Source of the DNA: Methanococcoides sp. | GTDB lineage: Archaea; Halobacteriota; Methanosarcinia; Methanosarcinales; Methanosarcinaceae | Length of the DNA stretch: 64,000 bases | Reading direction: 5' to 3' | Assembly: GCA_021108275.1 (NCBI GenBank) | Contig: JAIORD010000042.1 | Location: forward strand, 62,001-126,000 | Part shown: positions 12,378 to 33,358 of the stretch, in pieces | How the letters are laid out: each line of letters starts with the position of its first letter | Position numbering within the stretch: the first letter of the stretch is position 1 | Notes under the pieces: model-generated | Told to the model about the DNA's origin: nothing | The model's database searches: none | Seen by the model: only the letters and a program-made list of their open reading frames with translations | Position numbers and translations under genes: made by a program

Positions 12378-12881
12378 TTACTCTCCTTTGCGGCGCCGAA
12401 GGAAGAATGCCAGGCCAATGATCGTTGCTATTGGGAGAGCGATTATTGGGAATTCAGGGACTTCGTTCGTTCTTGAAGCAGCGTCAATTACTGCTCCTGC
12501 TCCCTGTGGACCAGCCTTGATCTGGATCGTATAAACGGTGTCCATTGGTGCACTTGCATTTTTGGTGATGGTTATATTGCCTACATCAACAAATGGATCT
12601 GATGTTGGTGTTACATCATGTGGATATGTGATCTCGATATCATTAGGGCTGCCTGAGCCGGATCTAACAGAAACAGCGTATTCGTAGATCAAGGGTTCAT
12701 TTAGGTTCGCGATACCCTCCATGTGGTAACTCATTACTAATGATTCACCTGGCTGGATAATAACCGTATGTGGCAAACTTGATGTCCCGGTCTCATCCCA
12801 TAGGTCCGCCCCATAACCCATTGTTGTACCACTTGTGGCTATAATTGCTACTATTAGGTATAGTAATATTTTCCCTTTCAT
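12378..12881 (-). CDS. PEF-CTERM surface protein
   Basis: A 167-residue exported protein. It has an N-terminal signal peptide (MKGKILLYLIVAIIATSG), a beta-rich middle of about 110 residues, and a tripartite C-terminal sorting tail: EVPEFP, then IIALPIATIIGLAFFL, then RRRKGE. This is the PEF-CTERM pattern handled by archaeosortases, so processing by the archaeosortase encoded at 22551-23405 is the natural hypothesis. The frame extends to 12974, but the ATG at 12881 gives a proper signal peptide and has GGCGGT upstream. The middle is unrecognised; it contains NITITKNASAPMDTVYTIQIKAG, reminiscent of CARDB-like beta domains. Confidence 0.9.
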   Translation of the reverse strand: MKGKILLYLIVAIIATSGTTMGYGADLWDETGTSSLPHTVIIQPGESLVMSYHMEGIANLNEPLIYEYAVSVRSGSGSPNDIEITYPHDVTPTSDPFVDVGNITITKNASAPMDTVYTIQIKAGPQGAGAVIDAASRTNEVPEFPIIALPIATIIGLAFFLRRRKGE

Positions 12882-13039
12882 GATTATACCGCCCCGCTCT
12901 AACGATCTATAGCTAATTTTTTGGATTATGTTATATTTAAACATTGTGAATCTGTGGGAGTAGTTGTCAGGCACTCAATTCACCCCCATATTTCTTCCGT
13001 TTTCACAACGAACAATGCTGGTCTATTTTATGGATTTAG

Positions 13040-14815
13040 TTATGTAATATTAACAAAATCCGGAAATTCTATATCTACAGTAGTTTTGGTGTCCGGAGTG
13101 TCGTGGAGACGTTCCCAGTTTCCAACTGCATCTCTTGCTCTGGTGCGGAAATAATAATCATTTCCATTAACTCCCGTGAATGTTGCGGAAGTTTCCTTTG
13201 ATTCGGCTAACCATGTCTGCCAGTTTTCCCCATCAATACTATATTCCACAAGATAGTAATCAATACCGCTTCCAATATCTGTGCCATTCCACTCTACTTC
13301 AAAATCGGCTGTATTCACGGTTGTTGGCAATGGGATCATTTCTGATCGTGGTGGGTGGAGTTCGAGAAGTGCGTTCTCTGAGTAAGGCGAAAGTTCCGAA
13401 ATTGGAAGTATTGTTACTTCGTCCCATATTATTTCTACAGGATGGACATCCTTATTGCCTCTCTGGATGGTTCTTAATGTTATGATATTGTTTCCTTCGT
13501 TCAATATTACTGGTATATGGACACGTTGCCAATTATAATCTCCACCGACCGCAGTTTCCCAAACTAATATATTGTTGATAAGTATCTGCTTGAATTGTGT
13601 CTGATCGATATCAATAATTCTGGGTTTGTATGTGTCCTTCACGAACAGTGACAGTACAACAGTTTCCATTTTATCCGATCTGACGTTCTGTGCCATCTCG
13701 TAATATTGTCCATTGTAATGTGGCAAATTTCCTTCGTATGGAAGCTTGAACACAAATCCCTGGGATTCAAATATTCCTTCTTCTTTAACATATGCTCCAC
13801 TGAAGTTCGCATCGGTGGTCTTAAAGTTCCAGCTGGTGTTTTGCTCCATGTCATAGTTCTTAAGTACGTGAAGTGGATCAATTGATCCATTTACCTCTCC
13901 TTCTGTCAGTTCTTGCGGATATTCCATGGGGTATTCGTGTGTTATCTGCAGATTCACGGAGCTATATGGATTGAGTGATACTTCTTCCTTGAAAAGGGCA
14001 TACTCAAGCTTTGATCGTCCCATTCGCATCTGTTCGGGATGGTATGTCAGTTCCTCTTCCCATTTTTCTTCATCAGATAATGTGACGTTCAACGTTTGAA
14101 GAACTTCGCCATCAAGCTGCATTTGAAGTATGTAGTTCACATCCTGCTTCTCATAGTTCTCGATCCCCACGGTAACTGTAATGGGTTCTTCGAGGAATGC
14201 GTTTGTGGGGTAGTTCTCTGCCATTCCTTCGGGTCCGAGCATATACAGTGCGGTGAACTGTTCTTCTTCTTGTGTGGTCTTTGCGTAGACTAGCATCCCT
14301 GCTGCTATGATAATGGATGCCACAAGGGCGATAATTAGCGCCTTCTCTATCTCAGGTGGTATACGGTTCTTTTCAGGAACATTTTCATCATCTGATCTTA
14401 TGGACTCTATGAATCCGTGAACTGAAAATGTGAATTGGTCTTCTTCCAGATGCCTTCGTCTGGCAGGATATGCAAGTACGGCAAAAATGACTGTTATTAT
14501 TAGTAATGATATTGATATGGAGTATGGTCTGAATAACCATTCTGTCTGGCTTAATGCAAAGCCATCAAAGACCGTTATAGCTATGCTGGACGCAATACTC
14601 AATGTAAAACGTTCGATGTTGCTGATGTCTCCTTTTGGGAACATCATGGCGATAAATGCATAACCAGGGATGAAAAATATCAGAGGCAGGGCAAAGACTA
14701 TCCGCAATGGAGTTTCGTTCAGTGGCGGAACAAGGATAAAGATCACTGCAAGTATTGCCAAGGCAATAACCGCTATAAGATCCTGCTTATATACACACTT
14801 ATCAGACTTGAACAT
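13040..14815 (-). CDS. DUF1616-family membrane protein with large extracellular region
   Basis: A 591-residue protein. Residues about 15-115 hold four hydrophobic segments and match the DUF1616 membrane module (LNETPLRIVFALPLIFFIPGYAFIAMMFP). A further membrane segment near residue 160 (ALIIALVASIIIAAGMLVYA) precedes a large probably external part with beta-rich repeats. The last 110 residues resemble a fibronectin-III-like fold (DYYLVEYSIDGENWQTW...YYFRTRARDAVGNW). DUF1616 proteins often occur beside archaeal glycan or S-layer genes; their role is unknown. No Shine-Dalgarno is visible before the ATG. Same strand as the PEF-CTERM gene, 158 nt away. Confidence 0.82.
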   Translation of the reverse strand: MFKSDKCVYKQDLIAVIALAILAVIFILVPPLNETPLRIVFALPLIFFIPGYAFIAMMFPKGDISNIERFTLSIASSIAITVFDGFALSQTEWLFRPYSISISLLIITVIFAVLAYPARRRHLEEDQFTFSVHGFIESIRSDDENVPEKNRIPPEIEKALIIALVASIIIAAGMLVYAKTTQEEEQFTALYMLGPEGMAENYPTNAFLEEPITVTVGIENYEKQDVNYILQMQLDGEVLQTLNVTLSDEEKWEEELTYHPEQMRMGRSKLEYALFKEEVSLNPYSSVNLQITHEYPMEYPQELTEGEVNGSIDPLHVLKNYDMEQNTSWNFKTTDANFSGAYVKEEGIFESQGFVFKLPYEGNLPHYNGQYYEMAQNVRSDKMETVVLSLFVKDTYKPRIIDIDQTQFKQILINNILVWETAVGGDYNWQRVHIPVILNEGNNIITLRTIQRGNKDVHPVEIIWDEVTILPISELSPYSENALLELHPPRSEMIPLPTTVNTADFEVEWNGTDIGSGIDYYLVEYSIDGENWQTWLAESKETSATFTGVNGNDYYFRTRARDAVGNWERLHDTPDTKTTVDIEFPDFVNIT

Positions 14816-15004: not shown

Positions 15005-15838
15005 ATTAACAATCAAGTAAAGATCATCTTCCTCTTTGTTCTATTTTCAATCCCTGTTCCTGCGATAGTTTTCTTGATATTTGGGGATATTGCTGGTGTT
15101 ATCTCCTTATTAGTGTTCTTATTTTTAAGCTATATTATCTACCGTTATAGTGGCAAGATCCTTCTTAGATGGTATCGTGCAGAAAAGGTGGGCTCCTTGG
15201 ATAATCTTTCTAAAAAAGCAGAAATATCAACTCCTGATATGTATCTGTTTGATTATCCTTTACCTTTGATTTTCACGGTAGGCACAAGTGGGAAATACGA
15301 TATTGCGGTGTCCAGTGAGGCAATGGATTTGTTTGATAAATCTGAGCTTGAGACTATGCTCGCACGTGAAATTGGTCATATAAGGAATGGTGACGTCCCA
15401 TTAAATACCATTGTTGCTCTTTTCGCAGGCTCTTTTGCAGCTGTATCCACACTTGCATTGTGGGGGGCACTGTTTATGGGTTTTGGGCAGAAGTATGACC
15501 CTGCACCTCGATTCATTCGTTTCCTTTCAATGGGGTTGGTAGCTCCACCTGCAGCATTGGTTGCACAGTTGTTAGTTGCATGCTCAAGGGAACATGTGGC
15601 TGACGAAACTGCTGTAGAACTTACTGGAAATTCTCAGATGCTGGTGGAGTCCTTGGAACGATTGAAACATCAGGTCGATCTGAATCCAGTAGGTGTAAAT
15701 CCTGGACACGCTCACATGTTTCCTCTCAATGTATTACATGTTACAGATTTGTATGATATCCATTTATTACTGTTCAATACCCATCCTTCTATGGAAAGTA
15801 GATCTAATCGATTGAAGGAAGCATCAAAAAAGATATAA
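15005..15838 (+). CDS. M48/HtpX-like membrane protein with degenerate zinc motif, apparent ATT start
   Basis: A 277-residue homolog of M48 (HtpX/Ste24) membrane peptidases. Two N-terminal membrane segments (residues about 5-45) precede the soluble domain, and the family's tail FNTHPSMESRSNRLKEA is present. The zinc motif expected as HEIGH reads REIGH (codon CGT), so one metal ligand is lost. The third-ligand region SREHVADETAVE is kept. Catalysis is therefore doubtful; a regulatory or structural pseudoprotease is possible. No ATG, GTG or TTG precedes the first membrane segment. GGGGAG (14994-14999) is 5 nt before ATT at 15005, which gives the complete N-terminus; TTG at 15074 would cut it off. 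Followed 15 nt later by a small membrane-protein gene. Confidence 0.85.
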   Translation: MNNQVKIIFLFVLFSIPVPAIVFLIFGDIAGVISLLVFLFLSYIIYRYSGKILLRWYRAEKVGSLDNLSKKAEISTPDMYLFDYPLPLIFTVGTSGKYDIAVSSEAMDLFDKSELETMLAREIGHIRNGDVPLNTIVALFAGSFAAVSTLALWGALFMGFGQKYDPAPRFIRFLSMGLVAPPAALVAQLLVACSREHVADETAVELTGNSQMLVESLERLKHQVDLNPVGVNPGHAHMFPLNVLHVTDLYDIHLLLFNTHPSMESRSNRLKEASKKI

Positions 15839-15853
15839 TGGAGGCTATTACGT

Positions 15854-16137: not shown

Positions 16138-16878
16138 TTAGATTATTTGGCATCCATCTACTCCGATGATCTGTCCACTTACATAGTCGCCAAGTTCTGA
16201 ACTCAAAAATAAAATCACTTTTGCAACATCTTCTGGAGTTCCACTCCTACCAAGAGCTATGTCAGAGATTATTTTTTCTTTGATTTCCTCTTTAACATCT
16301 TTGGTCAGGTCGGTTTCAATAAATCCTGGTGCAATTGCATTAACTGTTATTCCATATCTGCCAAGCTCCTTTGCTGCAGACTTTGTAAATCCAATGACTC
16401 CTGCTTTGCTTGTTGAATATGCTGTTTGCCCAGCATTTCCATTCAATCCTATTATAGATGATACATTAATTATTCTTCCGGATTTTTGCTTCCTCATAAT
16501 GTTTGAGGCGTATCGACTACACAAAAAAGTCCCTTTTAAATTAACGTCAATGATATTATCGAATAACTCAGTGCTTGTCATCATCAAATAATTATTTTTC
16601 ATTATTCCAGCATTATTTACAAGTATGTCGATCTTGAAGTATTGTTTTTTAATATATTCAAACATGTCTTTGACTTCATTTTCAACAGAAACATCTGCTT
16701 TTATCATGGTTGCATGAAGTCCTTTCTCATTAATGATGTCTACAAGTTCGGCTGCTTTATCTTCACTTTTGTGATAGTTAATGATCACTTGTGCATGATT
16801 CTCTGCTGCTAGTAGTGCCGTAGCTCTTCCGATCCCGCGGCTTGCTCCTGTAATCAGTACTACTTTATCTTTGAGCAT
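16138..16878 (-). CDS. FabG-like short-chain dehydrogenase/reductase
   Basis: A 246-residue classical SDR, the exact size of many 3-oxoacyl-ACP reductases. The NAD(P) motif TGASRGIG is at residues 10-17, then NNAG, the catalytic Ser in NVSSIIG, and YSTSK with catalytic Tyr/Lys. The frame continues to 16956, where an ATG would overlap the stop of the upstream gene, but those 26 extra residues are foreign to the family, so 16878 is preferred. It is the last gene of a minus-strand run that begins with an acyl carrier protein; reduction of an ACP- or nucleotide-bound intermediate is therefore plausible. Substrate unknown. Confidence 0.88.
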   Translation of the reverse strand: MLKDKVVLITGASRGIGRATALLAAENHAQVIINYHKSEDKAAELVDIINEKGLHATMIKADVSVENEVKDMFEYIKKQYFKIDILVNNAGIMKNNYLMMTSTELFDNIIDVNLKGTFLCSRYASNIMRKQKSGRIINVSSIIGLNGNAGQTAYSTSKAGVIGFTKSAAKELGRYGITVNAIAPGFIETDLTKDVKEEIKEKIISDIALGRSGTPEDVAKVILFLSSELGDYVSGQIIGVDGCQII

Positions 16879-16952
16879 TTTCACATTCCACTTTTTAAGC
16901 AGTTCAAAGTTCGAATCATAAAGATCTGGTATCGCTTGGCATAAATGTAATA

Positions 16953-17921
16953 TCATTTATCAAGATAGCATATAGTTGGTGGAGACACACTATAATTGGC
17001 TGCACTTCTTACCTTGTCGATGTGTTTTTTTGCTCTATCGATTGCTTCTTCTGACAGTTCGGTGTTCTCTTCTATCATTTCAATGGGCAGAGCATATTCC
17101 TGTGAGTATAATAGCTGATCCATAATTTGAATTGGCATACGCCAGTAAAAATCCTCATCAGATGTATAGTGGCTCCATGTATCTGGGCTTGGAGGTCTTT
17201 CTATTATCTCTTTATCTACACCAAGTAGATCTGCTAATGCATATACTTGAGTTTTATAACAATCTGCCAGGGGTTCGATGTCCACTCCACCATCTCCATA
17301 TTTTACGAACTGTCCCAGGATAAGTTCTGTTTTATTAGTTGTGCCACATACTATATAATTATTTTTTTCTGCATATAAATATTGGATCAACATCCTTGAC
17401 CTTTGTTTCACATTCTGGATGCCGATAAGTTCGAGATAGTCCTTTGCTTTCAACCTGTTCTCTGCAATTATCTCACCATCTTTTACCAGTCTTATGGATG
17501 GGATGTTTAGCATATCATTGTTTAAGAGTGCAGGCAGGACCAGTGAGGTCTTATGGATATCAGAATCATATTCATGACAGGTTTTCTTTATGATCCTATT
17601 CTTCTCAGCATATATGTCAAGTGACTGCAATATTGGGGTAATTGGAACCTTTTCATAAGAAACATCCAATAACTCACAAAGTCTCGCTCCAAGTTCCGTA
17701 CTTATGGTGGCTGATTCTTCTTCAGGAAGTAGTAATCCATAAACATTTTCATTGCCCAAAGCCTGAACAGCTAGTGTGAGTATGACTGCAGAATCGATTC
17801 CACCTGAAACTCCTACAACAACTCCTTTTTTCTTAAAATCCTGAACTTTTCTTTTAATAAAGGTTCTGATCTTAAAGGCGTTCTTTTCTGTATCTTTGTT
17901 CAGTTCATCAATAATTATCAT
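16953..17921 (-). CDS. NadE-like PP-loop ATP-dependent ligase
   Basis: A 322-residue member of the NAD synthetase family without a glutaminase domain. The PP-loop is SGGIDS (residues 39-44). The family signatures CGTTNKTELILGQFVKYGDGG, DIEPLADCYKTQVYALA and ERPPSPDTW follow in order. Authentic NadE adenylates and amidates nicotinate dinucleotide. Here the gene sits inside a surface-glycan operon, so a specialised amidation or ligation is at least as likely as a housekeeping role. The ATG at 17921 is preferred over GTG at 17930 because AGGGTGA lies 6 nt before it. The interval to the amidotransferase gene upstream is 80 nt. Confidence 0.85.
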   Translation of the reverse strand: MIIIDELNKDTEKNAFKIRTFIKRKVQDFKKKGVVVGVSGGIDSAVILTLAVQALGNENVYGLLLPEEESATISTELGARLCELLDVSYEKVPITPILQSLDIYAEKNRIIKKTCHEYDSDIHKTSLVLPALLNNDMLNIPSIRLVKDGEIIAENRLKAKDYLELIGIQNVKQRSRMLIQYLYAEKNNYIVCGTTNKTELILGQFVKYGDGGVDIEPLADCYKTQVYALADLLGVDKEIIERPPSPDTWSHYTSDEDFYWRMPIQIMDQLLYSQEYALPIEMIEENTELSEEAIDRAKKHIDKVRSAANYSVSPPTICYLDK

Positions 17922-18001
17922 AATGTTCACCCTGAAAATGATTAGTACTTTGAGCAGCTGTTTTGTTTAGAGCATTAGTGCATACAATTTGGAATTCTAG
18001 C

Positions 18002-19015
18002 TCACACGATTTCCATATTGAGTTTTTTTGCAGCCATTTCTATCAATGGTTTTGACAATTCTTTATGCAATTTATCCAATCCTTCTTCCCGGGTCATATC
18101 TCCGCTTCTCACAAGCCCTGCTATATCGAAAGCATATGGGTGGATCTCATATTTTTTGATATGGTTATCGCAGGCAAATGCATTTAGAAGGCAGTTTGTT
18201 GAATTGCTGTCACTGATCTTCGGTGGTATCCATCCGATATCAATTAGATTCTCTACTATCTTCTCTTCATTATAGTCCCACAGGCACAATGGGTGTAAAA
18301 TAATTGGAGTAGCCTCCTTGTTTATGGTTTCTATTATCTCATTTTTTATAAGGAAAATTTCATCTTTGTCCTCTATTCCGATATTTTGAAGCTGCTTCTC
18401 AAAAATATCTCTGGACCATTTTATGAAATTGGCCTGAAGGTCAATTATGGGATTGGGTGCCTGTCCAGATGTAAACGCAAAAACAATGAATGGTGCTTTA
18501 TGGACGATCGCCTGTTCTATCAGTTTCTGCTTGATAATGCTAATACAGGTATTGCAGATATCACTGGCTCGATATCTGGCTAATTTTGAGTATGCGTTGG
18601 TAGATTCAGCTGCTTTTTTAAATGTATCATAAAGCTTCTTTTCTTCCATTGTCAGCTTAAAATAATCGCATCCCACGATCTCACACATCTTTTTTGCATT
18701 GGCAACAGCAGTGTCTGAAATAAAAGCATTATCAAATTGAACTGCAAGTATATTCAGGAAAGGGTACTCTTTTTTAAGTTTATAGAGTCCATATGAAGAG
18801 TCTTTTCCACCGGAAAGTGCAAAAATAACATCATATTCCCCTACTCCGCTGTGTTCTTTAAGCAGGTTTTCTATAATCCCCAAATATTTCTTCTTTTCTT
18901 CTGAAGATATGGGTGTGTAATTCTCACAGAACTGGCAAAGGCCACTCTCTTCGCTTATTTTTATACCAGGAATGTCTGAATCTAAGATACATTTTTTACA
19001 TATTAGCTTTGACAT
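18002..19015 (-). CDS. N-acetyl sugar amidotransferase (WbpG/PseA-like)
   Basis: A 337-residue PP-loop ATPase of the WbpG type, which converts a sugar acetamido group to an amidine in several surface polysaccharides. The N-terminal zinc cluster is CKKC...CQFC (residues about 6-30), the PP-loop ALSGGKDSSYGLYKL follows, and later DICNTCISII supplies more cysteines. In Pseudomonas WbpG works with HisH- and HisF-like partners; none is seen in this window. The start overlaps the end of the AMP-ligase gene by 20 nt, which indicates coupling. Confidence 0.85.
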   Translation of the reverse strand: MSKLICKKCILDSDIPGIKISEESGLCQFCENYTPISSEEKKKYLGIIENLLKEHSGVGEYDVIFALSGGKDSSYGLYKLKKEYPFLNILAVQFDNAFISDTAVANAKKMCEIVGCDYFKLTMEEKKLYDTFKKAAESTNAYSKLARYRASDICNTCISIIKQKLIEQAIVHKAPFIVFAFTSGQAPNPIIDLQANFIKWSRDIFEKQLQNIGIEDKDEIFLIKNEIIETINKEATPIILHPLCLWDYNEEKIVENLIDIGWIPPKISDSNSTNCLLNAFACDNHIKKYEIHPYAFDIAGLVRSGDMTREEGLDKLHKELSKPLIEMAAKKLNMEIV

Positions 19016-20474
19016 TTTTATACCCCTCTATTATAGACCTGTTTGATATTTTTCCGCTTTTGCTTAGTGGTAAGTTCTCGATAAGAATAATTTCCAGTGG
19101 ACACAAAAAACCGGGCAGGTTCTTCCTGCAAAATGTATACAATGTTTCAACTTCTGTATCCGAGGTTGGAATTACCATAAGGCTGATTGCATTTCCTAGG
19201 TACTCATGATCGACTGGGACAACGAATACATCAGATACTTCATTATTTTTCCCAATATATTTTTCCACTTCTCTTGGATTTATTCGATGATCGGCAACTT
19301 TGATCAGATCGTCCTTGCGGCCTAATAATTTAAAGTAACCATTTGGTAACTTCTGTGCCAGATCTCCGGTATGCATCCAACCATCTATGATCTTTTTACG
19401 GGTAGCTTCCTCATCGTTAAGGTAACCTATCAGTATATTTTTACCTCTGGCGATCAATTCTCCCGTGACACCGGAATCAACTGACTTATTGCTATCATCA
19501 ACTACATCAAGCTCAACTCCTGGAATTGGTCTGCCTATTGTATCGGGGTATTTTTCCAGGTCGGCTGACGGAAGATAGGAAAGTCTTGCTGTTGCTTCTG
19601 TTTGTCCATACATAGGGATTATTTCGATCCCGTCACTCAATTGCTTGATCATTTCTATGGTCTCTATTCCCATGGCACCGCCTGCAGAAGCAGCAAGTCT
19701 GACGTTCCTGAACGATTTCTGGAATCTGGAAGGATACTTGAGAAGGATACGGTAGGTACTTGGAACTCCATAAAATATAGTTACCCCTGATTCTATAAGT
19801 TTAAAGGTAGATTCGAGGAAAGTAAGGCCACCGATCTTAATAGCACCTCCTGCTATCAACTGGGAATTAATTATCGAATTTCCAAAAGCATGGTGTGGAG
19901 ATATCACCTGTGCAGCTTTGTCCTTCGGTGTTATATTAAGTACATCGATTATGGAATTTGCATTTGCTATTAGATTTTCATCACTTAGCATGACACCTTT
20001 TGGAGTTCCGGTCGTCCCGGAAGTATACATTACGAGCCTTAATAGCTCATTATTGTTCTCAGTAATGGTCTTTTTACGTAAAGTCATCACAGAGGAATCG
20101 TTTGAAATATTGATCACAGTGGCGAATCCTTCAAAGAAAGCATTTCCAAATCTCGAATATTGCTGGTCTGTGACAATAATATTATTTATCCGGTTACTAT
20201 CAAGTATCTCTCGAATGTTAGATTCCATCAGTTCCACAGGTAGGGGGACAGCGATGTTATCCGATCGATAAACTGCCATTAGAGCCTGAATATATTCTAT
20301 GCCTGATTCGGCAAGGATTGCAAATTTACAATTCTCAAAATCATTTATTTCTGATGCTATAGTGCTTATATTTTCATCAAGAAGACTATAGGAAACAGAT
20401 CTTTCCTTCTCTTCCAGAGCAATGTTCTTAGGAATTGTTTTTGCATGGTTTGCAATATATTCATCAATTCTCAT
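18996..20474 (-). CDS. AMP-forming acyl-CoA/ACP ligase (ANL superfamily)
   Basis: A 492-residue adenylating enzyme. It shows the P-loop-like motif YTSGTTGTPKGVMLS, the acyl-adenylate region YGQTEATARL, the hinge motif GWMHTGDLAQKLPNGYFKLLGRKDDLIK and the catalytic lysine region LPLSKSGKISN. It should activate a carboxylic or amino acid as adenylate and pass it to a thiol. The acyl carrier protein gene 4 nt upstream makes ACP loading the best guess. Comparable AMP ligases are standard members of bacterial exosortase A loci. The acid cannot be predicted from sequence. Confidence 0.9.
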   Translation of the reverse strand: MRIDEYIANHAKTIPKNIALEEKERSVSYSLLDENISTIASEINDFENCKFAILAESGIEYIQALMAVYRSDNIAVPLPVELMESNIREILDSNRINNIIVTDQQYSRFGNAFFEGFATVINISNDSSVMTLRKKTITENNNELLRLVMYTSGTTGTPKGVMLSDENLIANANSIIDVLNITPKDKAAQVISPHHAFGNSIINSQLIAGGAIKIGGLTFLESTFKLIESGVTIFYGVPSTYRILLKYPSRFQKSFRNVRLAASAGGAMGIETIEMIKQLSDGIEIIPMYGQTEATARLSYLPSADLEKYPDTIGRPIPGVELDVVDDSNKSVDSGVTGELIARGKNILIGYLNDEEATRKKIIDGWMHTGDLAQKLPNGYFKLLGRKDDLIKVADHRINPREVEKYIGKNNEVSDVFVVPVDHEYLGNAISLMVIPTSDTEVETLYTFCRKNLPGFLCPLEIILIENLPLSKSGKISNRSIIEGYKNVKANM

Positions 20475-20478
20475 TGTC

Positions 20479-20724
20479 TCACTTTGTCAATTTTTGGATA
20501 ATATTTACAATTCCATTGATCGAATCAAAATTTTCAGGAGTTAATAGGTCTTCAGGAATATCGATGGAATATTTTTCAGAAATAAAATCTATTAATTCGA
20601 TCAATCCAATAGAATCGATGATTCCTTTCATAGTTAAAGAATCATCATCATTTAATTTTGTACCACTGTCCATAAATGATTTATTTTGCAAGTATGCCAT
20701 CATTTCTTCTTTAATTTGTTCCAT
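20479..20724 (-). CDS. Acyl carrier protein
   Basis: An 81-residue four-helix carrier protein. The phosphopantetheine attachment serine is Ser38 in IIDSIGLIEL. Acidic helix II and the C-terminal helix are as expected. The frame begins with TTG at 20742, but the ATG at 20724 has GGTGGAG upstream and gives the usual length. Archaea lack bacterial fatty-acid synthase, so a lone ACP beside an AMP ligase points to a dedicated acyl- or aminoacyl-transfer pathway and requires a phosphopantetheinyl transferase, which is not seen here. First gene of the operon running down to 16138. Confidence 0.9.
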   Translation of the reverse strand: MEQIKEEMMAYLQNKSFMDSGTKLNDDDSLTMKGIIDSIGLIELIDFISEKYSIDIPEDLLTPENFDSINGIVNIIQKLTK

Positions 20725-21245
20725 ACGTGTCGCTCCACCCAACTTATTAATTATTTAAATAGCATAATAATGCAGCATTGATACAACAAAACCATGTCCC
20801 AGAAATATAAGGAATACTTTCTGTTTCATAGCTTTTTGACCCAATTCCCATAAGTAAATAACTTTAATCGTATATAATATGTTGTGATTTTACACAACTT
20901 CTTCTATCTGTTGAAGATCAATCTATAATACTTTAATTGTAATTATTATTAATTTCTATTTATAACTTTCAGAAACTACTAGTTATATACTTTTTATGAG
21001 TGTTACGCATCTAATGGTTGAATGTTTTTTTGTAGATAGCTTATATTGATCTTGTAATTATTTGAAGCAAAAGCAACAGACAATATGTATCTGCTATTAA
21101 TAAGAAATTCTTAATGTTTGATATCAGTGAGATCAATTTCCTTATTCAAACTGATTTTAATGTTTTTATAGGCGTATTTTCATCGCTACTCAGATCAAGG
21201 TATATCAGCGTAAATCTAAGTATATTTTTAAGTTCCCATGCCAAG
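20725..21245. other. AT-rich gap between the GNAT and ACP genes
   Basis: About 520 nt with no supported gene. On the minus strand an ATTTAAATAA element near 20750-20760 is a candidate TATA box for the ACP operon. The remainder is very AT-rich, consistent with decayed or regulatory DNA; no repeat or RNA was recognised. Confidence 0.5.
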
Positions 21246-22376: not shown

Positions 22377-22450
22377 ATAAATATATGTAACATAACGATT
22401 TAACAATTTCTATATGTGATCTAAGGCAGGATCTACAATCATTACAAGTA

Positions 22451-22560
22451 GTGACAATGATCACAGGTAATTATGTGAGGTAATAATTTTTGCCATGACT
22501 ATTGCATTTTTGGTTTTCAGGATAAAACTAGATGTTTAAGGAAAACAGATTTAGAGTTTG
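22451..22560 (+). pseudogene. Decayed copy of the small membrane-protein gene at 15854-16072
   Basis: This stretch aligns with 15974-16084 over about 110 nt. It starts with TGACAATGATCACAGGTA against TGTCAATGATCACAGGTA and ends with TTTTCAGGATAAAACTAGAT against TATTCAGGATCAAGCTAGAT. Stops and a frameshift break it: VTMITG is in one frame and VFRIKLD in another. The two copies flank the block 16085-22450, which suggests that a duplication or insertion accompanied arrival of the ACP operon. Confidence 0.75.
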
Positions 22561-24417: not shown

Positions 24418-25431
24418 ATGATCGAGATAACAGATTCATTCGATAAGGTCCAGTGGGACAATTTCGTAAGCGATCATCCACATGGCAATATCTTCCAAAC
24501 CACGGAGATGGTTGAGGTCTACAGACAGGCAAAGAACTATGAACCTGTATCGTTGGCTGCGGTAGATTCTGTGTCTGGAGATATCTTAGCGTTAGTACAG
24601 GCAGCTGTTATATGTGAAATTAGTGGAATCGGAAGTTCGTATTCAGCACGTTCTGTGATACATGGAGGACCTCTTGCTGTTGAAAGTAGAGAAGGTGCTG
24701 AAGCAGTTTCTGTTTTGATGGGTCACTATAATGCTGTGATGAAAAAGAAGGCAATATATACCCAGATCCGCAATATATGGGATATACATGAATCTAAACA
24801 GATGCTGGAATCCCTGGGTTATACATATAGTGAGCATCTGAACTATCTGATCGACCTTAACAGGACTGCTGATACTGTGTGGCAAAGTATTCATAAATCA
24901 CGCCGAAAAGGTATCAACAGGGCAGAAAAAGCCGGTATCAAGATTAAGATGATCGAGAATGATGCTGAATTGGTATATTCATATAATTTGATTGAACAAA
25001 CTTATAAGAATGTTCGAATGCCGATTGCAGATATTTCTTTATTTAGGGCTGTATATAATTTATTTGCGCCAACAGGTATGGCTGATTTCTATGTCGCTAT
25101 TCAGGACGGAATGCCTGTAGGTACCCGGATAGTGCTCAAATATAATGATCTGGTGTATGACTGGTATGCAGGATCAAAAAAAGATGTGGAGTATGTGGAC
25201 GAAGCGCTCGTCTGGTGGGTTCTCAAAGAAAACGTTGGTACATATAAGACATTTGACTTTGGTGGTGCAGGTCACCCGAGCAAACCATATGGTGTAAGGG
25301 AATTCAAAAGACGTTTTGGTGGTAAGGAAGTGAATTTTGGTAGGTATGAGATAACACATGACAAGTTCAAGAATAAAATTGCTGAAGTTGGGTATGTTAT
25401 ATACAAGAAATTGAAGTGTGGACAATTCTAA
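24418..25431 (+). CDS. FemAB-like aminoacyl/acyl transferase, copy 1
   Basis: A 337-residue double-GNAT protein of the FemAB/BioF2-like class. Recognisable parts are NIFQTTEMVEVY near the N-terminus, LIDLNRTADTVWQSIHKSRR in the middle, and YDWYAGSKKD with the end motif FDFGGAG...VREFKRRFGG. FemAB enzymes add amino acids to glycan precursors; a member of the family is characteristic of exosortase A loci. It follows the deacetylase by 25 nt and precedes the DegT gene. It is clearly paralogous to the protein at 28137-29141. Confidence 0.87.
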   Translation: MIEITDSFDKVQWDNFVSDHPHGNIFQTTEMVEVYRQAKNYEPVSLAAVDSVSGDILALVQAAVICEISGIGSSYSARSVIHGGPLAVESREGAEAVSVLMGHYNAVMKKKAIYTQIRNIWDIHESKQMLESLGYTYSEHLNYLIDLNRTADTVWQSIHKSRRKGINRAEKAGIKIKMIENDAELVYSYNLIEQTYKNVRMPIADISLFRAVYNLFAPTGMADFYVAIQDGMPVGTRIVLKYNDLVYDWYAGSKKDVEYVDEALVWWVLKENVGTYKTFDFGGAGHPSKPYGVREFKRRFGGKEVNFGRYEITHDKFKNKIAEVGYVIYKKLKCGQF

Positions 25432-25475
25432 CATCGATATGTACTTATAAAATTGAACTAGAACCAATATTAAGA

Positions 25476-26660
25476 ATGAATTCGATTAAACCCGACCCCA
25501 GATTAATTCCCAGATTTAACATTGACTATTATACTGGGGATTTCCTATCATCAATGCTACATCTAGAGAAAAAACCAGATGTAGACAAGATTACAAATCT
25601 ATTTGCAGATGTATCCATTAATTACACAAATAGCGGTCGAACTTCTCTTTATATCATTTTAAAAGCTCTGAATTTGCCTGAGAATTCAAACATTGGTGTT
25701 TCTTTATATACGTGCCCAAGTGATTTCGATGCGATAATACATGCTGGACATAATCCAGTATTTATTGACATTGAACCTGATAATTATACTCTCGATCCAC
25801 AAGATCTGAATAAAAAAATAGATGATCTTGCTGCTGTTGTTGTAGTCCATGCCTTAGGTCGTCCCGCTGACCTTGAAGGGATACTGAAGGTTGCAGGGGA
25901 CAAGCCGGTGATCGAGGACTGTGCTCATGCATTGTTGAGCAGGTACAAAGGGATGCTTGTTGGAACAATTGCAACTGCTGGATTTTTTAGTTTCAGAACT
26001 GGGAAATATATTTCCGCAGGTGAGGGTGGAATGATCACTACTAATGATCTTCAGCTTGCATCAAATATAGAGAATGAGATTGAAAAACTCCAACTTCCTT
26101 CAATTACTGACGAGATAAAACATGCAACAATAACGTATGCACGCTCGCTACTGTATCACAGGCCCTGGTTTGGATTGTTTTCTTTGCCACTTGGTAGTAG
26201 GATTGAAGATAAGATTGATATTATGAACAAACGCTCATTTAGTAAAACAAAGATCCGGAACACGGATCTTCATGTTATTACTAAAAAAATAAAGGATTTT
26301 CAGGGAAAAGTGGATAAAACTAGGGATAATTCCCTTTATTTAATAGAACAACTAAAAGGTCTTGATCTAATACTTCCATTTGAGCGTTCGGAAACCTACT
26401 GTAATTATTTCCTTTTTCCAATACAGTTTAAAAACATTTCTGTAAGGGACAATTTGAGTGAAGAGCTCAGAAAAGCAGGATTTGATACAGTCATGCTGTT
26501 CAGTGCGACACCAGAAATCGCAAAATTGAGTTATGGATATGAGGGGGATTGCCTTGCTACTGAAAATGTAGCAAAGAGGCTACTTGTTATGCCTAACCAT
26601 TATACATTGAGAAAAAAAGAACTTGATAAAATATGTAATATCATAAAAAATTGTATTTGA
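25476..26660 (+). CDS. DegT/DnrJ/EryC1-family aminotransferase
   Basis: A 394-residue PLP enzyme of the sugar aminotransferase family, which aminates nucleotide keto-sugars. The internal-aldimine lysine is in FFSFRTGKYISAGEGGMITTND, and the cofactor-binding aspartate region is PVIEDCAHALLSRYKG. The frame opens at GTG 25416 within the previous gene, but the ATG at 25476 gives the usual N-terminus (MNSIKPDPRLIPRFN). No Shine-Dalgarno is visible. An amino-sugar product would fit the nearby deacetylase, amidotransferase and FemAB genes. Confidence 0.87.
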   Translation: MNSIKPDPRLIPRFNIDYYTGDFLSSMLHLEKKPDVDKITNLFADVSINYTNSGRTSLYIILKALNLPENSNIGVSLYTCPSDFDAIIHAGHNPVFIDIEPDNYTLDPQDLNKKIDDLAAVVVVHALGRPADLEGILKVAGDKPVIEDCAHALLSRYKGMLVGTIATAGFFSFRTGKYISAGEGGMITTNDLQLASNIENEIEKLQLPSITDEIKHATITYARSLLYHRPWFGLFSLPLGSRIEDKIDIMNKRSFSKTKIRNTDLHVITKKIKDFQGKVDKTRDNSLYLIEQLKGLDLILPFERSETYCNYFLFPIQFKNISVRDNLSEELRKAGFDTVMLFSATPEIAKLSYGYEGDCLATENVAKRLLVMPNHYTLRKKELDKICNIIKNCI

Positions 26661-27102: not shown

Positions 27103-28140
27103 TTGAATGTATTATTGGATATTGGTCATCCTAAAGATGTAAATGTGTTCAGCAATGTGATTCGATTACTTCAGGAAAGGGGACATAAAATTAAAATCTT
27201 TGCACGGGCTAAAGAAAGCACCAGAAAAATGCTGGAAGAGAATGGTTTTGAATATAAACTCTGCAAACATTATAAGACAATGCCGGGCAAAGCTTTTGGT
27301 GTTCTTGCTAATGATCTACTTTTGTACAGAATGGCAAGAAAGTTCAAACCTGACATTTTTGTAAGTCCGGGTTCTCCTTATTCAGCACATGTTAGCAGAC
27401 TTATGGGGAAGCCCCATCTGGCATTTTCAGATACTGAAATAGCAGGTCTGGTCACAAAACTTGCCTTTCCATTTACAGATAGGATTTACACGTCGACATC
27501 GTTCTATCTGGACCTTGGACCAAAACAGACACGTTTCAGAGGCTATTATGAGTTAACATACCTTCACCCCAAATATTTTAAACCCGATGAGAATGTGTTG
27601 ACTAAATATGGTTTAAAAGCAGGATATATATTGGTTCGTCTATCTGCTCTCTCCTCACATCATGATCTACATGCAAAAGGCTTTAATTTCAAGGCGGAAA
27701 AAGAATTAATAGAATATATCTCTGTGCTTGAAAAGTATGGAAAAGTTATTATCTCCTCTGAGATTTCAGATTGGCAAACAATTAAGGATTATCAGCTTGA
27801 AATGGACCCCAAAGACCTGCATAATATAATCTATCATGCTGCACTGTGCATTAGTGAAGGTGCAACTATGGCTTCGGAGGCCGCTGTACTTGGAGTTCCT
27901 TCTATCTATGTTTCCAATAATCAAAGGGGTTATCTCAACGAGCTTGAGCAAAAATATGGACTTGCTTATACGATCCCTGATAAGGATCTGGCACTAAAAA
28001 AAGCGATTGAGATACTGGAGAATGGATCAAATAGAGATGTATGGAAATCAAAAAAAGATGAAATGTTAAGCGATACCATAGACGTTGTTGATTTTATTGT
28101 TGATACCATTGAGTTTCATGACCAAAAGGGAGTCCAATGA
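27103..28140 (+). CDS. DUF354-family protein (GT-B-like), copy 1
   Basis: A 345-residue DUF354 protein. The N-terminal strand is VLLDIGHPKDVNVFSNVIRLL, followed by RGHKIKIFAR. The C-terminal half has the sugar-nucleotide-like region SEGATMASEAAVLGVPSIYVS. Its fold resembles GT-B glycosyltransferases and UDP-GlcNAc 2-epimerases; activity is unproven. The start is TTG at 27103 with GGGGTG about 8 nt upstream and puts the conserved strand right at the N-terminus. Its stop overlaps the ATG of the second FemAB gene (ATGA), so the two are coupled. Paralogous to 42799-43845. Confidence 0.85.
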   Translation: MNVLLDIGHPKDVNVFSNVIRLLQERGHKIKIFARAKESTRKMLEENGFEYKLCKHYKTMPGKAFGVLANDLLLYRMARKFKPDIFVSPGSPYSAHVSRLMGKPHLAFSDTEIAGLVTKLAFPFTDRIYTSTSFYLDLGPKQTRFRGYYELTYLHPKYFKPDENVLTKYGLKAGYILVRLSALSSHHDLHAKGFNFKAEKELIEYISVLEKYGKVIISSEISDWQTIKDYQLEMDPKDLHNIIYHAALCISEGATMASEAAVLGVPSIYVSNNQRGYLNELEQKYGLAYTIPDKDLALKKAIEILENGSNRDVWKSKKDEMLSDTIDVVDFIVDTIEFHDQKGVQ

Positions 28141-29141
28141 CAGAATTTAGCATAATGAAACCAGAAAAGGACATGCTAAATAAGTTTGTCTCTAAAAACA
28201 AGTATGCTACTATTTTCCAAACAGGTCACATGCTTGATATCTATCATGATGTGCCTAATTGTGAACCACTGGCTTTGGCGGCAGTTGATGATAACGGTGA
28301 AATTCTGGCATCGTTGGTCAGCATCAAGTTTACAGAAATAAGCGAAATCGGGTATCTTTCTTCCCACATCACTATTCGCGATGCTCCCCTCTGGGTAAAT
28401 AGCGAATGTGGAAAAAGTGCAGCCCTTGAACTTATTAACAAGCATGATAAAATTACTAAAAAAGGATCCCTTTATAATCGAATATATTCAAACTCTAATG
28501 TTGACATGCCTGATTTATTGTGTTCATGCGATTATAATTACGAGGATAATTTAAATTTCTTTATTGACTTGAACCGAACCGAGGAGGAGTTATGGAGTTC
28601 GTTAGGAAAAAAGAAACGTAATGGTATTAGAAAAGCTCAAAAAAATAATGTGGTGATCAAGGAAGTAGAAAATTATGATGAATTAAAAAGTTTTTATAAG
28701 CTTTTGTCAGAAACTTCAGAAACTGCCAAGATACCAGTTAAAGATTTTAAGTTGTTCTATAACGTCTATAACCTACTGGTACCAAAAGGATTGTCTAAGA
28801 TATATCTGGCAACTTACGATGGCTTACCAATTGCTGGAATACTTACGCTTAATTATAATAATACCATTTATGATTGGTATGCGTGTTCATCACGTAAACA
28901 TTTGCATCTGCATCCTAATGAATATTTAGTCTGGAATATACTATCATGGGGCGCTAAGAACGGTTACTCTACTTTTGATTTTGGGGGAGCAGGCAGTCCG
29001 AAAGTAAAGTATACTGTCCGAAATTTCAAAAAACAATTTGGAGGGACATTAGTAAACTATGGTACATACACAAAAATAAACAAACCACTTACTTTCAAGG
29101 TATGTAAAAAATGTTATGAGCTATATTGTAAAATGTTATAA
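28137..29141 (+). CDS. FemAB-like aminoacyl/acyl transferase, copy 2
   Basis: A 334-residue paralog of the protein at 24418-25431, collinear over its whole length: ATIFQTGHMLDIY, FFIDLNRTEEELWSSLGKKKRNGIR, YDWYACSSRKH and FDFGGAGSPKVKYTVRNFKKQFGG. Its codon use is more AT-rich than that of copy 1. Two different FemAB-like enzymes in one cluster could add two successive residues, as FemA/FemB do in staphylococcal cross-bridges; this is inference. Translationally coupled to the DUF354 gene upstream. Confidence 0.86.
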   Translation: MTEFSIMKPEKDMLNKFVSKNKYATIFQTGHMLDIYHDVPNCEPLALAAVDDNGEILASLVSIKFTEISEIGYLSSHITIRDAPLWVNSECGKSAALELINKHDKITKKGSLYNRIYSNSNVDMPDLLCSCDYNYEDNLNFFIDLNRTEEELWSSLGKKKRNGIRKAQKNNVVIKEVENYDELKSFYKLLSETSETAKIPVKDFKLFYNVYNLLVPKGLSKIYLATYDGLPIAGILTLNYNNTIYDWYACSSRKHLHLHPNEYLVWNILSWGAKNGYSTFDFGGAGSPKVKYTVRNFKKQFGGTLVNYGTYTKINKPLTFKVCKKCYELYCKML

Positions 29142-29314: not shown

Positions 29315-30745
29315 TTGAGCACAATTGATAAGGTAGCCAAAAATACAGGTGTCCTGCTAGTAGGGAATCTGCTTTTCAGGTTGATCTCTTTAGTTGTTGT
29401 AATATATCTCGCAAAATACTTGGGAGTCGATGAGTTTGGGAAATACAATTTTGTGTTTGCCTACATTGCATTTTTTGGCATAGTTATTGATTTCGGCCTC
29501 AGTGAAATACTTGTAAGGGAGATGTCAAGAGATGCTGAAAGCATGGCAAAAATGCTTGGAAATGCATATATTATTAAAATAATACTCTCTATATTTTCTA
29601 TTCTTCTGTCAATATCGATCATATCACTGATGGATTATCCGGTAGATACGACCACATACGTGTATCTGATATCATTCACACTACTGTTCATATCATTTAG
29701 CGATAATTGCCGTTCGGTGTATCAAACCACACTTAAAATGGAATACGACATAGTAGCAAAACTGATCTCTAAAATAGTTTCTGCCTCTCTGATCTTCTTC
29801 ATAATTGCTATGCATGGCACCTTATATCAGTTAATACTTGTATTCCTATTTTCAGAAGTATTGAAAGCCTTGTTAAATTATTTTTTTGTGAAAAGATTTG
29901 TTAGGGTCAAGTTCGATATCGATCTCAAATTGTGGAAGCATTTATTCAAAGAAGCTCTACCAATCGCATTCTCCAGTGTGTTTCTCATAATATATCATCG
30001 AATAGATGTACTGATGCTTTCTATGATGGTCGGTGATCATGCCGTGGGCCTGTATTCAGCTGCATATAAATTATGCGAACCATTAGGCTTGATCCCATAT
30101 GCAATAGTCATCTCATTGTTTCCTGTTATGTCAAGAGCATTTACAAGTTCAAGTGAGACTTTAATTAAATATTATGAAATGGGTTTTAAATTCCTTGTAA
30201 TACTTATGCTGCCAATTACAGTGGGAACTGCTCTTATCGCTGAGCGTATCATATTCCTTATTTATGATCAATCCTTTGCGGGTTCAATAATTGCGCTCGA
30301 AATACTAATATGGTCGGTCTTCCTCATATCTGTGAATTTATCTTTAACGAGTCTGTTAACATCAATTAATAAGCAAGGATTGAACACCTTGAGCATGGGT
30401 GTCTGTGTTGTGGCAAATATCTTACTCAATTTCCTGGTAATCCCTAAGTATAGCTATTATGGAGCAAGTATTACAACGGTCGTAACAGAATTGATCTTAT
30501 TATTTATGAGCCTTTATTTTGTTTCCACTAATTTAGTCACTCCAGGGATATTCAGGATATTCGTTAAGCCCATACTGGCGTGCTTGCTCATGGCTATGCC
30601 TGTTTATTATCTGAATAATTTTGTAAGTGTCAACATTTTTTTAATAGTGGTCTCAGGAGCACTTACTTATGGGGTGGCTTTGGTGGCTTTACGGATATTT
30701 TCAAAGGATGAAACCAAAACTATAAGAAGGGTTTTGAAGATATAA
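29315..30745 (+). CDS. Polysaccharide flippase (Wzx/MATE-like, MOP superfamily)
   Basis: A 476-residue membrane protein with about 12-14 hydrophobic segments. The N-terminal NTGVLLVGNLLFRLISLVVVIYLAKYLGVDEFGKYNF and the following GIVIDFGLSEILVREMSR are typical of polysaccharide-biosynthesis flippases. It would move a lipid-linked glycan to the outer face of the membrane. The start is TTG at 29315, with CAGGTGA 5 nt upstream. After the stop (30746-30953) a short hydrophobic frame without an obvious start is seen, probably a relic. Confidence 0.9.
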   Translation: MSTIDKVAKNTGVLLVGNLLFRLISLVVVIYLAKYLGVDEFGKYNFVFAYIAFFGIVIDFGLSEILVREMSRDAESMAKMLGNAYIIKIILSIFSILLSISIISLMDYPVDTTTYVYLISFTLLFISFSDNCRSVYQTTLKMEYDIVAKLISKIVSASLIFFIIAMHGTLYQLILVFLFSEVLKALLNYFFVKRFVRVKFDIDLKLWKHLFKEALPIAFSSVFLIIYHRIDVLMLSMMVGDHAVGLYSAAYKLCEPLGLIPYAIVISLFPVMSRAFTSSSETLIKYYEMGFKFLVILMLPITVGTALIAERIIFLIYDQSFAGSIIALEILIWSVFLISVNLSLTSLLTSINKQGLNTLSMGVCVVANILLNFLVIPKYSYYGASITTVVTELILLFMSLYFVSTNLVTPGIFRIFVKPILACLLMAMPVYYLNNFVSVNIFLIVVSGALTYGVALVALRIFSKDETKTIRRVLKI

Positions 30746-30953: not shown

Positions 30954-31856
30954 ATGAGCATGAGAACATATATTTTGGTGACGCCTTGTAAAGACGAAGA
31001 ATACAGTTTGCCAAAACTTGCAGAGTCGGTTATCAACCAGACGGTGAGGCCAAAGCTATGGGTAATAGTCGATGATGGTAGTACGGATAAAACTCCTTTA
31101 ATATTACAAGAACTTACCACGTCCCATGACTGGATCAGATCCGTACGACTGGATGAAACTCCAAGAGATCTGGGGATCCACGTTGCACATGTTTATCGAG
31201 TGGGTTTTGATCATGCACTGGAATATTGTGATAGCAACAATATCGCATATGATCATATCGGGGTCGCGGATTCAGATGTTGTACTTGATGATAATTATTT
31301 TGAATATCTAATGGATCAGCTTGAAATGAATCCTAAACTTGGCATCTGTAGTGGTCGTATCGGCTCTACTGTTAATGGTAAAATACTGTGGGACCGAGAT
31401 CGTGATGATCTGCCAACAGGTGGTGCCAGGCTATGGAATATAAAATGCTTTGAAGAGACGGGGGGTTATCTTTTAACCTGTAGTCCTGACAGTATTGCTA
31501 TTGTAAAAGCTAAACTTAGGGGATGGGAAACAAAAAAGTTCGATGACGTAAGAATGGTATCTTTAAGACCATTCGCAGGTGCTGAAGGTCAATGGATCGG
31601 ATACAAAAAAATGGGTTCCAACAATTATCATATCGGTTTCACTCCGCTGCATATTTTACTAAAAGGGATAAAACTTTTATGGAGCAATGATGATTTTCAT
31701 AAAAATGGTGTTGGCATACCTTATATGCTAGGGTACTTCACAGATTATGTTAAAAGAGAACCCAGAATTGATGATAAAGAAGTTATCGACTATTACAGGA
31801 ATACCAGGCTGAAGGAGGTATTATGTTTAAAGACAATCCACCGAAAAACAAGGTGA
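30954..31856 (+). CDS. Family 2 glycosyltransferase
   Basis: A 300-residue GT-A enzyme. It opens with TYILVTPCKDEEYSLPKLAESVINQTVRPKLWVIVDDGSTDKT, the nucleotide-sugar site, and has VADSDVVLDDNYFEYLM as the DxD-type metal motif. GGARLWNIKCFEETGGY matches the acceptor region. Cytosolic face of the membrane. Its 3' end overlaps the next gene by 34 nt, and a GGAGG ribosome site for that gene lies inside its coding sequence. Linkage and sugar are not predictable. Confidence 0.9.
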   Translation: MSMRTYILVTPCKDEEYSLPKLAESVINQTVRPKLWVIVDDGSTDKTPLILQELTTSHDWIRSVRLDETPRDLGIHVAHVYRVGFDHALEYCDSNNIAYDHIGVADSDVVLDDNYFEYLMDQLEMNPKLGICSGRIGSTVNGKILWDRDRDDLPTGGARLWNIKCFEETGGYLLTCSPDSIAIVKAKLRGWETKKFDDVRMVSLRPFAGAEGQWIGYKKMGSNNYHIGFTPLHILLKGIKLLWSNDDFHKNGVGIPYMLGYFTDYVKREPRIDDKEVIDYYRNTRLKEVLCLKTIHRKTR

Positions 31857-33358
31857 TAATTTTTGCACTTCTTGTTGTGCTGAACATAGTGATAAGGATC
31901 CCCTCTATCCCTCATGAAAAAGGAAGCGATTCTTTTTTTGTTCATTCACTTGCAAACTCGATCACGATGTATGGACAGGCTAACTGGTGGGAAAGTTGGC
32001 TTTCAATCTTTGGTTTATATCCATTGTCATATGCAAGTGGGATTCCGTATTTCTTGTCTGGTATTTCCCAGCTTGCAAATATTGATATGGAAATCACGAT
32101 TTTGGTTTTCTCTTTAGTTTTGGGTATTTTTAGCCTATTTGCCTCTTATTTACTTGGAAATATGCTCTATCCAGATTCAATTTTTAAATATATATTTGCA
32201 TTTCTTTTTTCAGTGTCTCAGGGTGTATTGATCTTTACTACATGGGAGGTCAGTACAAGAGGTCCTTTTATTGCACTATTTCCTTTGTTCTTATATTTGC
32301 TATTGAAATTTTCGAACGGTTCAAGGTTAAAGATAGGTGCTCTGTTGCTTATGTTATTAATTTTACTATTTAGCATTCATAAATTTTCTTACTTTGCAGC
32401 GTTATCTCTTGGATTGATGGTGTTCTTGTTATTGACCAGAAATAGAATAAAAATACCTTCCAATCTTCAGACAATAGGCTACACTGCATTGTTTTCATTC
32501 TTCATGCTACTTCCGTTTTTCAAAAGAAGCCTAGTACCTTTTGCAGGTTCCAGGTATGATTGGATATTGGAAATATTCATAGTTCAAGTAAGGCATGTGG
32601 GACCATTGACCCTATTAGTTTTTGGTGGCTTGGTTTACATGCTGTTGAAACAGCCTAAGAGAAAAGAAGAGTCGTTCATTCTATTGTTATGCGCATTCCT
32701 TTTGCCAATTATATATTCTGATATCTATGGGCATTTTGTTTATCTGATCTTCTCAATATTATTGGTTAGCATTGCTCTTACTAATATTCTTAATGTGCCC
32801 TCCAAACATTTTAAAACATTCGCAATATTATTACTTATTTGTTCGGTATCATTTTCGGGCTTTTATAATCACTGGCGTACTGGAGAATCTGCGGAAGAAT
32901 GGGTGATGGATGACAAGACATATGTTTCTGCAAAATGGGCCAATCAATATATTGATGATACAGCTGGAGCTTTCGGGAACGGTGATAGAACAATGCGCCG
33001 TTTTATGGCTATATCAGATGGAAGTCCAAGAGTACTTTTAGATTCGATATCAGCTCTCACGTATGGATTTGTGAATTTTTCTGAAATTGATGTGCAAAAG
33101 AGGTCTCCATTGTCCAGTTCATATTATTTTGACAATCCCTATTTTGCGGGAGATTTTCATTCAACAGATGGGAATGTCAACTGGGTCTTGATACAGGAAA
33201 ATATAGATTACAGGTCCTCAAAAGAGATATACGACAAATATGACCTTTCTTATCTTATAATGGACACTAAGTATCCTGAACCTGTATTTGAATCAGTATA
33301 TGAGAAAAAGATAAGTGTCTATGATAATAGCAGGATAAAGATATGGATAATAGACTAA
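31823..33358 (+). CDS. Polytopic membrane protein, probable GT-C glycosyltransferase
   Basis: A 511-residue protein with about ten membrane segments and a C-terminal external domain of about 150 residues. The first loop after helix 1 holds acidic residues (PHEKGSDSFFVHSLANSI), as in GT-C enzymes that use polyprenyl-phosphate sugars. The C-terminal domain contains DDTAGAFGNGDRTMRRFMA and DSISALTYG. It has no clear PMT, ArnT or oligosaccharyltransferase signature, so the GT-C call is inference from layout and context. GGAGG precedes the ATG by 5 nt. Last gene of the plus-strand glycan series. Confidence 0.7.
   Translation: MFKDNPPKNKVIIFALLVVLNIVIRIPSIPHEKGSDSFFVHSLANSITMYGQANWWESWLSIFGLYPLSYASGIPYFLSGISQLANIDMEITILVFSLVLGIFSLFASYLLGNMLYPDSIFKYIFAFLFSVSQGVLIFTTWEVSTRGPFIALFPLFLYLLLKFSNGSRLKIGALLLMLLILLFSIHKFSYFAALSLGLMVFLLLTRNRIKIPSNLQTIGYTALFSFFMLLPFFKRSLVPFAGSRYDWILEIFIVQVRHVGPLTLLVFGGLVYMLLKQPKRKEESFILLLCAFLLPIIYSDIYGHFVYLIFSILLVSIALTNILNVPSKHFKTFAILLLICSVSFSGFYNHWRTGESAEEWVMDDKTYVSAKWANQYIDDTAGAFGNGDRTMRRFMAISDGSPRVLLDSISALTYGFVNFSEIDVQKRSPLSSSYYFDNPYFAGDFHSTDGNVNWVLIQENIDYRSSKEIYDKYDLSYLIMDTKYPEPVFESVYEKKISVYDNSRIKIWIID

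Follow-up and report, generated by a model that had tools for sequence, protein, structure and literature searches.

Which molecule accepts the C-terminus that archaeosortase C (ArtC) would release from its PEF-CTERM substrate? This question is raised by an island of Methanococcoides sp. (assembly GCA_021108275.1, contig JAIORD010000042.1) that lies at positions 12378-33358 of the analysed stretch of 64,000 nucleotides, which is referred to as the window. The limits of the island are the ends of open reading frames. A previous sequence-only reading of the window described an AMP-forming ligase, an acyl carrier protein (ACP), two FemAB proteins, a polysaccharide deacetylase, a DegT aminotransferase, a flippase, and glycosyltransferases around the archaeosortase, and proposed that they mirror the bacterial exosortase A (XrtA/EpsH) locus. 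All of these genes were identified in the window from open reading frames, family matches, and a predicted CE4 fold. The observation is confirmed and the interpretation is partly supported. The deacetylase and FemAB belong to a conserved core that is linked to ArtC, and the ligase and ACP belong to a separate pathway. We estimate the probability that the island is a sorting locus carrying its own acceptor-building genes at about 0.5.

Archaeosortase C and its predicted substrate

The gene for ArtC is at 22551-23405 on the reverse strand. Its product matches TIGR03762 with 365.9 bits (cutoff 100) and exhibits the conserved motifs GPCSG (185), LVRV (230), and HTHIGW (252). The predicted substrate is encoded approximately 10 kb away at 12378-12974 on the same strand and has the tail VPEFPIIALPIATIIGLAFFLRRRKGE. 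It matches TIGR03024 with 34.3 bits (cutoff 23) and is the only protein over that cutoff in a search of the whole 2.67-Mb genome. Both matches exceed the curated cutoffs. The exosortase A model TIGR03109 gave 29.1 bits, which is below its cutoff of 208. The other exosortase-family protein of the genome is ArtA.

Genes that travel with ArtC

A total of 186 genomes from the same order were searched for ArtC, which was found over the cutoff in 62; it was also found in the phylum outside the order. The gene content of approximately 20 kb around 20 ArtC genes was compared, and gene absences are upper bounds as some of these loci are contig ends. The recurrent order is PEF-CTERM protein, DUF1616 protein, M48 peptidase, ArtC, deacetylase, FemAB, an optional DegT, DUF354 protein, GT2 glycosyltransferase, and a 511-residue membrane protein. 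The deacetylase and DUF1616 protein are present in 17 of the 20 loci, the M48 peptidase in 15, and FemAB, DUF354, GT2, and the membrane protein in 14 each. DegT is present in 10, where some copies are distant paralogues. Together, the deacetylase, FemAB, DUF354, GT2, and membrane protein make up the conserved core that is linked to ArtC.

The same linkage is exhibited across the genomes. A deacetylase of the ArtC type (at least 364 bits) is present in 41 of the 62 genomes with ArtC and in 2 of the 124 others (odds ratio 119, Fisher p 4e-23), although such p-values overstate independence because the surveyed genomes are related. It lies less than 15 kb from ArtC in 36 of those 41 genomes, and within 15 kb of ArtA in none of the 39 listed genomes that have both. 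FemAB of type I, as defined below, is present in 34 genomes; 31 of them have ArtC, and in 26 it is near ArtC (odds ratio 40). The co-occurrence that the sequence-only reading had proposed to check is strong for the deacetylase, and its proposed neighbourhood survey recovered the deacetylase and FemAB repeatedly and the ligase and ACP in no locus.

Outside the order, ArtC loci (33-38% identity) likewise have FemAB pairs, DUF354, and often DegT. Two FemAB-like stretches with DUF354, often with DegT, were identified in six distant loci (L192, L193, L194, L196, L198, and L199), and L200 resembles them. A deacetylase of the window type is also present in L198, and L184 holds deacetylase, FemAB, DegT, and DUF354. 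Locus L194 has a PIG-L de-N-acetylase gene (8961-9584) directly upstream of ArtC, and two FemAB genes downstream flank a hexapeptide acyltransferase.

In the island, all genes from the deacetylase onwards are on the forward strand. The deacetylase (23601-24392) is followed by the first FemAB (Fem1, 24418-25431; PF02388), the DegT sugar aminotransferase (25416-26660; PF01041, 1.2e-43) with the candidate pyridoxal phosphate lysine K197, and the DUF354 protein (27103-28140; PF04007), a probable glycosyltransferase that is GT-B-like. The second FemAB (Fem2, 28137-29141; PF02388, 1.5e-19) and a Wzx-type flippase (29315-30745; PF01943, 3e-40) precede the GT2 glycosyltransferase (30954-31856; PF00535) and the 511-residue membrane protein (31823-33358). 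No Pfam family was matched by this membrane protein or by four of its homologues.

The deacetylase

The deacetylase has no informative Pfam or NCBIfam match, and it is labelled as a polysaccharide deacetylase because of its predicted CE4 fold. The AlphaFold2 model that was built from an alignment of 38 sequences has a mean confidence (pLDDT) of 88.8, and its best Foldseek matches are CE4 deacetylases. Re-alignment gave a Z score of 12.2 with PplD (root-mean-square deviation 3.4 over 176 residues) and of 11.8 with WbmS. The conserved motifs RHDVD and GHEIGFHYE are compatible with CE4 chemistry. The model identifies the protein as a predicted CE4-fold de-N-acetylase. Membership of the XrtA deacetylase family TIGR03006 is rejected: the window protein has no match at E<=1, and the control from the N. 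vulgaris XrtA locus (L053) scores 411.7 bits.

Relatives of the deacetylase were sought in 84,980 species genomes. The best 80 matches are nearly all from Bacteroidota and many adjoin FemAB and DUF354 genes; their taxonomic breadth is biased, since a Bacteroidota sequence headed the query and only these best 80 were listed. The closest relatives among the matches listed (approximately 40% identity) are in a capsule or exopolysaccharide (EPS) cassette of Bacteroidota (L058-L137 and L054). Only 6 of 48 genomes with listed relatives have an exosortase-family protein over the cutoff. The window type was found in 2 of 101 searched genomes of one Bacteroidota family, which is uninformative on VimE itself.

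A second class of the family (240-300 bits) comprises 53 copies in 38 genomes, and no copy is within 15 kb of ArtC. Some members (in G080, G139, G140, G148, and others) are in open frames of approximately 570 residues and sometimes form neighbouring pairs. The family also occurs on haloarchaeal plasmids. In L168, the genes that flank the deacetylase resemble a Wbp set by annotation: nucleotide-sugar dehydrogenase, Gfo/Idh oxidoreductase, DegT, and acyltransferase. Both L168 (4530-13482) and L167 have a window-type deacetylase with DUF354, plus a second polysaccharide deacetylase beside a FemAB-like protein. Another plasmid (L055) has a polysaccharide deacetylase and FemAB-like pair of the TIGR03006 and TIGR03019 kind. 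No sortase is among the nearby annotations of these three plasmid loci.

Two FemAB lineages in one slot

Both FemAB proteins of the window are of type I. They score 55.6 and 61.0 bits against the XrtA FemAB model TIGR03019 (cutoff 260). In a tree of 73 proteins, the type I FemABs linked to ArtC group with the Bacteroidota cassette FemABs, to which the window proteins are 27-31% identical, and the five FemABs from XrtA-type loci make up a separate group. The FemAB trees are quick trees without bootstrap. A single clade of window type I and XrtA FemABs is rejected by the approximately unbiased (AU) test (p-AU 8e-63).

The FemAB slot lies between the deacetylase and DegT/DUF354. In other ArtC loci it is filled by a type II FemAB (L036:11494-12564, L043:14767-15828, L044:11446-12507, and L051:4492-5556) of an XrtA-like lineage that scores 192-225 bits against TIGR03019. 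A clade of type II and XrtA FemABs is not rejected (AU p 0.30). A single clade of types I and II is rejected (p-AU 3e-9), and both types were found within the same genera. The occupation of one slot by two distinct lineages suggests that function matters at that position. In a search against the PDB, a FemAB profile hit FemX, Lipid II:glycine glycyltransferase, and peptide synthases that depend on aminoacyl-tRNA.

The ligase and acyl carrier protein module

The ligase and ACP belong to a module of five genes on the reverse strand (16138-20742). The module consists of the ACP (20479-20742; weak in Pfam, E 0.0019, NCBIfam ACP models to 7e-12, DSIG at residue 43), the AMP-forming acyl ligase (18996-20474; PF00501), a WbuX-like ATP pyrophosphatase (18002-19015; TIGR03573, 96.7 bits, below cutoff, with its placement resting also on genome distribution), a NadE-like ATP pyrophosphatase (16953-17930; NF002048, 424 bits) that adjoins ligase and WbuX conservedly, and a FabG-like short-chain dehydrogenase/reductase (SDR, 16138-16956; PF13561) that is judged to be outside the sorting system. 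The first four genes form a conserved unit, and the SDR is usually present.

None of the five genes was found in the 20 ArtC loci. The WbuX marker matches in 53 of the 186 genomes, a few of which have weaker paralogues only, and it is independent of ArtC presence (odds ratio 1.09, p 0.86). Both module and ArtC are present in 17 genomes, and they are close together only in the window genome and its close relative G096, where the contig (L169) ends inside the island and the flanking order is the same as in the window. The module is at the same chromosomal site in the congeners G092, G095, and G099, which have no ArtC. This site is beside genes for an M42 peptidase, a homocitrate/isopropylmalate synthase-type enzyme, and malate dehydrogenase. 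The shared site in congeners without ArtC implies that the module is a neighbour outside the sorting system, and the ligase and ACP are rejected as archaeosortase components on these grounds. The ligase also scores 223.9 bits against the XrtA ligase model TIGR03098, far below the cutoff of 592. The module represents a pathway of its own that shares a chromosomal hotspot with the sorting genes, and its part in the exosortase-like appearance is a coincidence of neighbourhood.

A related ACP-ligase pair (ligase 32% identical) was identified on a Paludibaculum plasmid (L056:7702-9482), with a flippase alongside and an EpsI-type gene nearby.

A proposed acceptor and its alternatives

We propose, by analogy and at the probability of about one half given above, that the product of the core is an N-aminoacyl linking sugar and that ArtC joins the PEF-CTERM C-terminus to its free amine. 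Two precedents guide this proposal, the Wbp/Vim sugar of the type IX secretion system (T9SS) and the archaetidylethanolamine put forward for ArtA. The analysis establishes which genes are present, how they are conserved and linked to ArtC, the CE4 and FemAB folds, and that the ligase and ACP module is independent; the reactions, the substrates, and the role of the sugar as acceptor are inferred, as follows. DegT would aminate a nucleotide sugar, the CE4-fold enzyme would remove an N-acetyl group, and FemAB would add an amino acid to the amine thus exposed. Assembly and presentation of the glycan would fall to DUF354, GT2, and the 511-residue membrane protein, and export to the flippase. ArtC would then cut the PEF-CTERM tail and attach the C-terminus so formed to the amino group of the amino-acyl sugar, so that the protein would be held on a surface glycan. 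An amino-acylated or acylated glycan had been suggested by the sequence-only reading; an amino-acylated glycan is likely, and its use as the acceptor is a sensible reading. We suggest tentatively, and with somewhat less confidence than the linking sugar itself, that ArtC may be a glycan ligase that transfers the substrate C-terminus to the free amine of an amino acid placed by FemAB on a deacetylated amino sugar, and that archaeosortase, exosortase, and T9SS sortase systems may have recruited the deacetylase and FemAB route independently of one another.

Several points weigh against the linking sugar. Polysaccharide genes cluster for many reasons, and the genomes behind the Fisher tests are not phylogenetically independent. 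The deacetylase is missing within approximately 10 kb in 3 of the 20 ArtC loci and FemAB in 6 (some are contig ends), which implies that the core is not obligatory. The deacetylase is of a family distinct from that of XrtA, and its likeness to VimE is one of described role. FemAB may transfer some group that is not an amino acid.

The chief alternative is a tailored surface glycan that has no part in the sortase step. On this reading, an ordinary surface-glycan cluster lies beside ArtC, which attaches the PEF-CTERM protein to a lipid amine (archaetidylethanolamine, for example, the candidate put forward for ArtA), and the deacetylase and FemAB serve only to modify a glycan on the protein or on the cell surface. 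The same cassette in Bacteroidota capsule clusters, the scarcity of exosortase-family proteins in those genomes, and the ArtC loci without FemAB agree with it. However, the deacetylase is linked to ArtC and never to ArtA, and FemAB recurs beside distant ArtC lineages. We lean against this rival while regarding it as a realistic possibility. It is quite unlikely that FemAB and a GNAT protein add formyl, acetyl, or ACP-borne acyl groups that vary the glycan chemotype while ArtC uses another nucleophile. A GNAT-like acyltransferase (21246-22406, reverse strand; PF13508, 2.5e-5) is encoded between the module and ArtC, with the ACP also nearby, and elsewhere it was found only in the close relative L035; the variable slot of other ArtC loci holds formyltransferase, hexapeptide acyltransferase, GNAT, or WbqC genes. 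The FemAB profile matches to peptide synthases argue against such acyl groups. Least probable of all is that transfer or convergence accounts for a sharing of the complete XrtA-associated set, ligase and ACP included, and that this set works on the glycan to which the sorted protein is attached. The deacetylase-FemAB-DegT order of the N. vulgaris XrtA locus and the XrtA-like type II FemABs favour it, but the module is unlinked to ArtC and occupies the same site in congeners without ArtC, the deacetylase has no TIGR03006 match, and the clade of window and XrtA FemABs is rejected. This explanation is refuted for the ligase and ACP and for the descent of the window deacetylase and FemABs, and an analogy of role remains.

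Neighbouring genes

Two further genes recur in ArtC loci. The DUF1616 membrane protein is encoded at 13040-14815 on the reverse strand (PF07760, 3e-65) and the M48/HtpX-like membrane peptidase at 15074-15838 on the forward strand (PF01435). Beyond the island, a tandem pair of similar beta-helix-like secreted proteins is encoded at 35287-40358 and 41536-42573. The second has a terminal dockerin-like repeat and is followed by a cohesin-domain protein (PF00963), which suggests from their sequences a cohesin-dockerin pair at the cell surface.

Comparison with known systems

The literature found on archaeosortase C and PEF-CTERM gives only the pairing of enzyme and signal, with no acceptor found described, and the window adds a conserved deacetylase-FemAB core. 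This core is a concrete and genetically testable candidate for the source of the acceptor.

The island resembles the XrtA/EpsH locus of N. vulgaris in its deacetylase-FemAB-DegT order, flippase, GT2, and sortase-family enzyme, which is the part of the proposed mirror that holds, as the deacetylase and FemAB, with DegT in some loci, are the conserved partners of ArtC. It differs in that its deacetylase and FemABs are from other families or lineages and its ligase is not comparable. The EPS machinery of XrtA (TIGR03013 sugar transferase, chain-length, autokinase, and export proteins) is present in L053 and has no NCBIfam match among the 20 window proteins scanned. Profile searches placed ArtC and the PEF-CTERM protein over their cutoffs and left the XrtA ligase, FemAB, and deacetylase models below cutoff or unmatched. 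The phylogeny likewise argues against kinship with XrtA, and the nearest listed relatives are in Bacteroidota capsule clusters. Judged by these sequence comparisons, descent does not connect the ArtC-linked core with the XrtA set, and the claim of a pathway shared in that way is not upheld. The FemAB-DUF354-deacetylase cassette of Bacteroidota capsule/EPS clusters holds the proteins most closely related to the window deacetylase and FemABs among the matches listed, but unlike the window genome, the genomes with that cassette mostly have no exosortase-family protein.

In T9SS, it has been reported that the cargo is joined to a linking sugar, where VimE, a putative CE4 deacetylase, is believed to expose an amine to which VimA, which is TIGR03019-like, would add Ser or Gly (PMC7468200). 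The same paper reports that a VimA-related gene and a deacetylase occur together in XrtA loci, and in 2020 it called the exosortase acceptor unidentified (PMC7468200). Our literature search on exosortases with FemAB and on exosortase A found nothing beyond that paper. The island is similar to the Wbp/Vim pathway in having a CE4-type deacetylase, a FemAB-type transferase, and a DegT-type aminotransferase that are tied to a C-terminal sortase. The likeness to VimE and VimA is one of described roles. The island is different in that the PorU sortase is not an archaeosortase and in that no full Wbp set was found in it: DegT is present, and no WbpA/B/D-like protein is among the island proteins scanned.

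Processing by ArtA requires PssA and PssD, and archaetidylethanolamine has been proposed as its amine nucleophile (PMC7157517). As with ArtA, PssA, and PssD, the gene for ArtC adjoins genes that are proposed to make its amine acceptor. The acceptor proposed for ArtA is a lipid, whereas the one proposed for ArtC is an amino-acyl sugar. The conserved, ArtC-specific deacetylase-FemAB core suggests that unrelated C-terminal sorting systems may share one chemical trick, the use of an amino-acyl sugar as nucleophile.

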